Part shown: piece after piece, positions 1 to 29,961 of the stretch | How positions within the stretch are numbered: the stretch's first letter is position 1 | How the letters are laid out: each line of letters begins with the position of its first letter | Assembly (NCBI GenBank): GCA_019044685.2 | Contig: JAGTXX020000007.1 | Coordinates: forward strand, 62,001 to 126,000 | Source of the DNA: Nannochloris sp. 'desiccata' | Lineage: Eukaryota; Chlorophyta; Trebouxiophyceae; Chlorellales; Chlorellaceae | Length of the DNA: 64,000 bases | Reading direction: 5' to 3' | The notes under the pieces: generated by a model | The model's database searches: none | What the model was told of the DNA's origin: nothing | Seen by the model: only the letters and a program-made list of their open reading frames with translations | Program-made: the position numbers and the translations under genes

Positions 1-51
1 ATAGTATAGAATCCTTAAACCCCCATCTATATACTCACATCCTTATCAAGC

Positions 52-264
52 TTGTCTAAGAATTCATCTTCGTCACACTCTACAGGCTTACTAAGCATAT
101 CCAAAATAGCCCTAGGATCCTTTTTGATAACCATTTTTGCAACTCTAATCTTACAAAAGATAAAAAATGATAGTCAGTCCTTACGCAACGACAGAATCTT
201 AAATGGCATTTTTATTGCCCTAGCTAGCTCCAGCACGCTGCTGCTGTGGTCTCTGTCTCCTTGA
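52..264 (+). CDS. Possible last exon of an unrecognised small membrane protein
   Basis: An open frame of about 70 codons ends at a TGA at 262-264. It has no ATG at its 5' end; the frame opens just after in-frame stops at 7-9 and 16-18. A pyrimidine-containing stretch ending in AG near 48-49 could be a 3' splice site, so this may be the terminal exon of a gene starting left of the window. The peptide has a hydrophobic segment (about residues 15-35) and a second one at the C-terminus, suggesting two membrane passes. It would be convergent with the proteasome gene. No family is recognised and it could be chance. Confidence 0.25.
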   Translation: MSKNSSSSHSTGLLSISKIALGSFLITIFATLILQKIKNDSQSLRNDRILNGIFIALASSSTLLLWSLSP

Positions 265-29600: not shown

Positions 29601-29676
29601 TTAGTTTGTCGATCAAAGAATGCTAACGAAAAAAATATTTTTTTCGCTGAACACCTTTGATATATAACCCCAGCAC

Positions 29677-29725
29677 TTTGAGAGGGAGCCAATTAACAAA
29701 AGAAGTTAATTGGTTCCCTCTCAAA
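29677..29725. repeat. Near-perfect 21-bp inverted repeat (stem-loop)
   Basis: Arms 29677-29697 and 29705-29725 are complementary over 21 bp with one G-T pair, separated by the 7-nt loop AAAAGAA. The left arm begins TTTGAGAGGGAGCCAATTAA. A TATATAA box lies 17 bp upstream on the plus strand (29660-29666). It is much stronger than expected by chance and unexplained by any gene. Confidence 0.75.
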
Positions 29726-29866
29726 ATAGCTAGAATTGGATTGATTGCCGGGGAACCTGTTTTTTGTTAAATTTTTATCATAGTGCTCAAATTTAATTAA
29801 GTAGATGTCACCACAACTCAAACTTTCGCAAGAGACATCTTGCAGGGACTAACACTCCCCCTTTTC

Positions 29867-29947
29867 ATCGAAAGGTCACCGGTTCAAGCCCGGTATTGAG
29901 CAACAGAAGCTCGATTAGCTCAGTTGGTTTAGAGCGTTCGACTAATA
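29867..29947 (+). tRNA. Circularly permuted tRNA-Ile(AAU) gene
   Basis: The 3' half (29867-29902: position 38 to discriminator A73) lies upstream of the 5' half (29909-29947: positions 1-37), separated by six bases (ACAGAA). Joined at the 37/38 position the two make a complete cloverleaf. The acceptor GCTCGAT/ATTGAGC has one G-U pair. The D stem is GCTC/GAGC with the loop AGTTGGTTTA. The anticodon stem TTCGA/TCGAA is fully paired. The anticodon loop is C-T-AAT-A-A, and the variable loop is AGGTC. The T stem is ACCGG/CCGGT with the loop TTCAAGC. T8, A9, G18-G19, G26, T54-T55-C56, A58 and A73 are all present. The A box (TAGCTCAGTTGG, 29916) comes after the B box (GGTTCAAGCC, 29881), the hallmark of permuted tRNA genes. 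T runs at 29948-29952 and 29956-29961 would stop Pol III. No CCA is encoded. No normal-order partner half is found nearby. Confidence 0.8.
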
Positions 29948-29961
29948 TTTTTCAATTTTTT

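Follow-up and report, generated by a model that had tools for sequence, protein, structure and literature searches.

We found that the window, a stretch of 64,000 nucleotides (C7:62001-126000 of a 21.55-Mb genome in 18 contigs), contains a type II (37/38) circularly permuted tRNA-Ile(AAU) gene on its forward strand, at 29867-29947. The gene consists of the 3' half, a 6-nt spacer, the 5' half and a T run, in that order (Table 1). The 3' half includes the T arm, the 3' acceptor strand and discriminator A; CCA is not encoded. The spacer has no T4, and its 6 bp fall within the 1-74 bp that a review gives for the class.

Rejoining the halves at 37/38 gives 7 + 4 + 5 + 5 pairs, with no mispair among the 21 stem pairs and with G5-U68 as the sole G-U. 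The anticodon loop is CU-AAU-AA, and the conserved bases are retained (U8, A14, G15:C48, G18G19, A21, U33, the T-loop UUC and A73). By inspection the junction is 37/38; any other join alters the 7-nt loop. An earlier note on this DNA had described a circularly permuted tRNA-Ile(AAU) gene in which all four stems pair with one G-U, the loop is CU-AAU-AA, the invariant bases are kept and the B box precedes the A box. Direct reading reproduced these features, and the identification is borne out by the sequence, by a match to a permuted-order model and by the pairing of the halves.

The DNA upstream of the gene contains AAATTT at -98 and -78. About 140 bases 5' of the gene lies an inverted repeat (window 29677-29725; 21 bp, 95% complementary, 7-nt loop), and the stretch around it, 29672-29730, folds at -33.7 kcal/mol (z -9.3). 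The window also has a glutamyl-tRNA synthetase ORF whose closest named relatives, among the matches listed, are from Micractinium (67%) and from Chlorella, Parachlorella, Auxenochlorella and Picochlorum (61-64%). Window ORFs carry BRX and CCT domains, which we take to be plant-lineage domains. On these matches the source is likely a green alga of the trebouxiophytes.

Table 1. Features of the window tRNA-Ile(AAU) gene (window coordinates) and the other permuted tRNA genes found in the genome
Feature	Locus	Position	Strand	Basis
tRNA-Ile(AAU) 3' half, positions 38-73		29867..29902	+	sequence, R1, descriptor scan
B box, positions 52-62, 5' of the A box		29881..29891	+	sequence
Spacer ACAGAA, 6 nt, links position 73 to position 1; no T run		29903..29908	+	sequence
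tRNA-Ile(AAU) 5' half, positions 1-37 (D arm, 5' anticodon strand)		29909..29947	+	sequence, R1, descriptor scan
A box, positions 8-19, 3' of the B box		29916..29927	+	sequence
Anticodon AAT		29944-29946	+	inside the 5' half
TTTTT immediately 3' of position 37, likely RNA polymerase III terminator		29948..29952	+	T-run placement over 18 permuted genes
Leader end CTCCCCCTTTTC, just 5' of position 38		29855..29866	+	sequence, pairing tests, folding
Permuted Met(CAU)	L011			
Permuted Asn(GUU)	L012			
Permuted Val(AAC)	L013	G000:C12:300922		
Permuted Ile(UAU)	L014			
Permuted Val(CAC)	L015	G000:C12:299083		
Permuted Thr(AGU)	L020			
Permuted Ala(UGC)	L021			
Permuted Thr(UGU)	L027			
Permuted Leu(UAA)	L028			
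Permuted Leu(CAA)	L029			
Permuted Ser(GCU)	L036			
Permuted Arg(UCU)	L061			
Permuted Lys(CUU)	L072			
Permuted Tyr(GUA)	L073			
Permuted Phe(GAA)	L074			
Permuted Cys(GCA)	L076			
Permuted Glu(CUC)	L086			

Detection of the Ile(AAU) gene and the search for other copies

ARAGORN, run on the window without and with introns allowed, reported no tRNA, and Rfam at gathering thresholds reported nothing there. Both were silent on this gene because they assume the ordinary order of the halves. We used a covariance model with the permuted order (R1), trained on 14 ordinary tRNAs that had been permuted by script; Ile(AAU) was left out of the training set, and the His tRNA was also excluded. Over both strands of the window and up to E 10, R1 gave a single match, at 29867-29947, with 68.7 bits and E 1.9e-19 (by a rough calibration). 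The score of the gene in the descriptor scan was 23.6. Shuffled sequence (23.1 million strand-bases) gave 23 descriptor hits at 19.5 or more, one at 21 or more (21.2) and none at 22 or more; on these controls a chance match was rejected.

The two halves belong to one tRNA, as had been claimed. All 12 acceptor and anticodon pairs form between them, and neither makes more than nine with a half taken from another permuted gene (17 genes, described below).

When the whole genome was searched at the DNA level for the rejoined tRNA (up to E 10), the window locus alone matched, as two halves. The earlier note held that normal tRNA-Ile(AAU) genes elsewhere would count against it. No ordinary-order copy was found by this search, which scored one first-pass candidate and which a diverged gene could escape, or by D-arm patterns allowing up to three mismatches. 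The Ile genes met by the patterns were permuted ones only, Ile(AAU) and Ile(UAU). An ordinary copy was not found although AUU, AUC and AUA codons are used in the window ORFs (183, 119 and 73 of 9118, in 14 of the 15 ORFs with Pfam matches), and this counts in favor of the explanation that we give below.

Two other readings of the locus were rejected. A fragment of a repeat family was rejected on the single genome locus in the DNA search, with its one candidate scored. For an ordinary gene with a long intron, the 600 bases flanking the gene on each side were scanned, and no second half, 5' or 3', reached significance (shuffle P 0.93 and 0.88).

Permuted and ordinary tRNA genes in the genome

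The genome has at least 18 permuted tRNA genes, the Ile(AAU) gene and 17 more, identified with D-arm patterns, the descriptor scan and R1. Seven D-arm patterns, blind to gene order, led to 74 places, all of which were scanned with R1 and by a script that looks for both orders with a 37/38 junction. Eighteen places were permuted, six were ordinary {Val(UAC), Gln(CUG), Ser(UGA), Ser(CGA) and two of Ser(GCU)} and 50 had no tRNA in these scans. The patterns cover some D-arm types only, and one was designed after the D arms of permuted genes that had been met before; leaving out that pattern, the count is 13 permuted and six ordinary. The 37/38 junction in all 18 is partly made by the method, because R1 and the script look for that junction only.

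R1 scores of the 18 permuted genes ranged from 29.5 to 72.1 bits, compared with 26.4 for the top ordinary locus. The lowest belongs to Ser(GCU) L036, which has a long variable arm, a type that R1 was not made for. Descriptor scores were 22.1-23.7 for 17 of these genes and 21.0 for Leu(UAA) L028. Because one shuffled hit reached 21.2, L028 rests on its R1 score of 42.8 bits.

We also paired the 5' halves of the 18 genes with all of the 3' halves. The own 3' half was the best partner of the 5' half in every case (18/18). All 12 acceptor and anticodon pairs formed in 15 genes, and 11 of the 12 in the other three. The 306 non-own combinations averaged 6.04 pairs, with a maximum of 11.

The permuted Val(AAC) and Val(CAC) genes (L013 and L015) are 1.8 kb apart on one strand, each with a 29-nt spacer, and their T arms are two bases different. 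As read from the descriptor scan, they have compensatory changes at pairs 3-70, 4-69, 5-68, 28-42, 29-41 and 30-40. That is, six pairs have changed on both sides, and the swapped halves are therefore tied together. It is likely that an already permuted gene was duplicated and that the anticodon changed afterward.

Some of the permuted genes have unusual features. Val(CAC) L015 has C, not U, at position 33. Ile(UAU) L014 has G at position 37, by a 36/37 or a 37/38 join alike; A at this position is usual in tRNAs reading codons that start with A. For Cys(GCA) L076, R1 and the script differ by 7 bases on where the 3' half starts. With one start the stem is perfect and the variable loop has 12 nt; with the other there is a mismatch, the usual variable loop and an A-I pair (see below). 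Decayed extra tRNA halves adjoin L027 (-36 to -15), L011 (+66 to +90), L086 (+30 to +56) and L021 (+126 to +153), and the signal for an extra half had P of 0.01 or less in 4 of the 36 flanks of permuted genes (100 simple shuffles). A simple tandem-duplication model is fitted by L011 alone, which has the 3' half downstream. No decayed extra half was found beside the window Ile(AAU) gene, and an extra tRNA arm upstream of L001 was rejected because it formed no cloverleaf.

The Rfam tRNA family, which covers the ordinary order only, gave at least nine matches on the genome, from 63 of 825 candidates scored. These include four tRNAs not met by the D-arm patterns: His, Pro, Asp and a Met(CAU), L003, which we take to be initiator-like by its features. 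The Rfam list is incomplete, because Ser(CGA), which passes the same cut-off, was missed. The totals are 18 permuted and nine distinct ordinary tRNA genes, both of them lower bounds and not a full inventory.

One ordinary copy of Ser(GCU), L004, lacks a T run over the next 40 bases. L004 and L005, the two ordinary Ser(GCU) genes, may come from an organelle, in which case the permuted L036 would be the nuclear Ser(GCU). A match to the Sen54 family and an ordinary Ser(GCU) tRNA are found both on G000:C13 and at the end of C6; on each contig some 72 kb lie between the two, and the orientation is opposite. Because this pair repeats on both contigs, C13 may represent part of C6 in a second haplotype.

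Transcription signals and the A-I pair

A run of four or more T's starts 0-14 nt after position 37 in all 18 permuted genes; 10.5% of random positions have one so near. None of the 18 spacers contains T4. The earlier note regarded a T run directly after position 37 as odd. It is not, since 5 of the 18 permuted genes share it, Ile(AAU) included. Upstream of 26 tRNA genes that were tested, certain A- and T-rich words are enriched, and no common TATA-like element was found at a fixed distance upstream of the 18 permuted genes. Loss of TFIIIC was considered as a possible cause of the permuted order, and the evidence on it points neither way. The B-block_TFIIIC family has two matches in the genome (best E 1.1e-8), but 8 of 14 prokaryote controls match it too, four of them over the cut-off, and the better of the two frames had no TFIIIC among its PDB matches.

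The genome encodes Sen2-, Sen34- and Sen54-like proteins: chains of these three are the top PDB matches of three frames. The ordinary His, Pro, Ser and Asp tRNAs carry introns, and need the same cutting and joining as is predicted for the permuted genes. The splicing endonuclease is described as reading the A-I pair as a signal at intron ends, and with the human enzyme disruption of this pair abolished the cut at the 3' site (PMC8479045). For eukaryotic 37/38 junctions the motif described is a relaxed hBH rather than a complete BHB (PMC3978253).

We tested for the A-I pair in the 18 permuted genes at one cell first, position 32 of the loop with position -3 of the leader, and then at all 72 loop-by-leader cells. 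Position 32 pairs with -3 in 13 of the 18 genes, compared with 4.66 expected, which is the largest excess among the 72 cells (P ~3.5e-5 for the cell, ~0.0025 after 72 cells). It pairs with -2 in none of the 18. Among ordinary introns, three of four tested have the -3 pair, as does the Asp intron by reading; the Ser(CGA) intron is without it. Because the pair is present in 13 of the 18 and in most ordinary introns examined, the leaders of the permuted genes resemble the end of an intron. A general hBH helix was not detected: in only 2 of the 18 genes is the longest loop-leader run better than in shuffled leaders at P 0.03.

The 32:-3 pair is missing from five permuted genes: Ile(AAU), Val(CAC), Thr(AGU), Lys(CUU) and Cys(GCA). 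Loop-leader pairing lies elsewhere in three of them, with four to five pairs one base further up in Val(CAC) and Thr(AGU) and six pairs further off in Lys(CUU), and the status of Cys(GCA) depends on which of its two split points is used. Ile(AAU) is a clear exception to A-I pairing among the permuted genes. Its C32 is unpaired with U-3, and its best loop-leader run is two pairs, compared with a shuffled mean of 2.28. The junction has neither a BHB or hBH helix nor an A-I pair, in line with the earlier note, which saw no helix between leader and trailer. The claim that this precursor is spliced is therefore weaker, and the claim about gene order is unaffected.

The Ile(AAU) leader can pair with GAAAGG of the 3' half, forming a hairpin with the cut site in its loop. 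In the linear precursor this hairpin is 1.2 kcal/mol better than the cloverleaf. The best folds of the linear precursors of the other 17 genes are 3.8-25.6 kcal/mol better than the cloverleaf, possibly in part through structure in the spacers. With a 27-nt leader, the best fold of Ile(AAU) retains the acceptor and T stems and loses the D and anticodon stems. Folding of the linear Ile(AAU) precursor had no significant stability (z -0.86). The minimum-energy structure is the cloverleaf for both the rejoined tRNA and the predicted circle.

Maturation of the Ile(AAU) tRNA and comparison with known permuted genes

Based on these results we infer, with a probability of roughly 0.8, that the Ile(AAU) locus is a permuted type II gene whose predicted transcript is cut at 37/38, circularized and then opened at the spacer to yield a normal tRNA. 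RNA polymerase III would transcribe both halves together from an upstream start. The tRNA-splicing endonuclease would cut the precursor at 37/38, although the cut at the leader would have to work without an A-I pair, and ligation of 37 to 38 would give a circular intermediate. RNase P and RNase Z would open the circle and remove the 6-nt spacer. CCA would then be added, and A34 would probably be edited to inosine before use of the tRNA on AUU and AUC codons. Judging from the sequence, this is probably a working gene, and its tRNA would be the major Ile isoacceptor. The earlier note likewise considered the gene functional, which agrees with the tests of sequence and pairing.

It is also possible, although unlikely, that the gene is permuted and used and that its leader is removed without the A-I pair being read. 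Another endonuclease could act on the leader hairpin, or a 5' exonuclease could remove the leader, with the U tail trimmed at the 3' end. The missing A-I pair and the loop-leader run of two pairs are consistent with this, as are the cut site in the loop of the hairpin and the presence of U's alone directly 3' of position 37. However, ligation is expected to need ends of the type made by the endonuclease. In addition, the -3 pair is absent from four further permuted genes and from the Ser(CGA) intron, and some of these pair in a shifted register; the A-I requirement may therefore be loose in this alga.

We consider it very improbable that the locus is a silent relic, from duplication or reverse transcription, and that the real Ile(AAU) gene was missed. 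A diverged gene could have been missed with the single candidate scored, and decayed half-gene copies do lie beside some other permuted loci. In contrast, all 21 pairs of this gene are free of mispairs and the conserved bases are retained, no other copy of Ile(AAU) was found, and 17 sister genes share the permuted form. Least probable is a split tRNA with halves transcribed apart and joined in trans, as in Nanoarchaeum: the halves do lie apart on the DNA, but the 6-base spacer has no terminator and no room for a promoter, and each of the 18 spacers is without T4 and joins 73 to 1 on one strand.

As a permuted gene, Ile(AAU) belongs to an established class. Permuted tRNA genes are known from a red alga, prasinophytes, a nucleomorph and one archaeon (PMC3978253), with further nucleomorph genes in another report (PMC4494063), and from the trebouxiophyte Auxenochlorella UTEX 250 (PMC12636532). 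The list in the earlier note (Cyanidioschyzon merolae, prasinophytes and a nucleomorph) was right as far as it went and lacked Auxenochlorella and the archaeon. The class is defined by gene order, and a 'no H' junction is mentioned among its archaeal members (PMC3978253). The 2014 table in that source has 34 permuted tRNA genes, with isoleucine absent.

Type II genes of prasinophytes (Ostreococcus, Micromonas) and of the Bigelowiella nucleomorph are like Ile(AAU) in having the 3' half first, the 37/38 junction and eukaryotic tRNA features (PMC3978253). Their spacers are 5-64 bp, compared with 6 in Ile(AAU); they are said to have the hBH motif, which Ile(AAU) does not; and each of those genomes has two to six permuted genes (PMC3978253), compared with the 18 found here. 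In C. merolae the halves are swapped likewise, the 5' half is followed by a T run, CCA is not encoded, and the circular intermediate that is predicted here was shown there (PMC3978253). Eleven of 43 genes are permuted in C. merolae, with junctions at four positions (PMC3978253), whereas our 18 were sought with the 37/38 junction only. The permuted share here would be 39% (18) if a set of 46 genes is assumed with all others ordinary. Ordinary tRNA genes with a 37/38 intron share the junction with the permuted genes, and likely the same endonuclease and ligase; they differ in having the normal exon order and a linear spliced product.

Among the matches listed in the open-licence PMC literature, we found no genome reported to exceed C. 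merolae in its number of permuted tRNA genes, a comparison to which the Auxenochlorella number does not belong. Within the literature compared, what is new is the scale, 18 here and 11 in C. merolae. An ordinary tRNA search gave an incomplete set in Auxenochlorella UTEX 250 (PMC12636532), as it did here. The ordinary finders that we used miss Ile(AAU), and the tRNA sets of such algae would therefore look incomplete.

The points of interest to specialists are the number of permuted genes, the finding that both Ile tRNAs found are permuted, and the A-I signal in the leaders. The permuted genes, at least 18 of them, are a natural data set for the requirements of permuted precursors, in which position 32 and leader position -3 stand out. 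A model of intron-like recognition is directly testable, with Ile(AAU) as a built-in exception. Tentatively, and at somewhat less than even odds, we suggest that this lineage may have made most of its nuclear tRNA genes permuted, including both of the Ile tRNAs found, that most codons would be read by tRNAs born from circles, and that the endonuclease would accept the Ile(AAU) precursor without an A-I pair.
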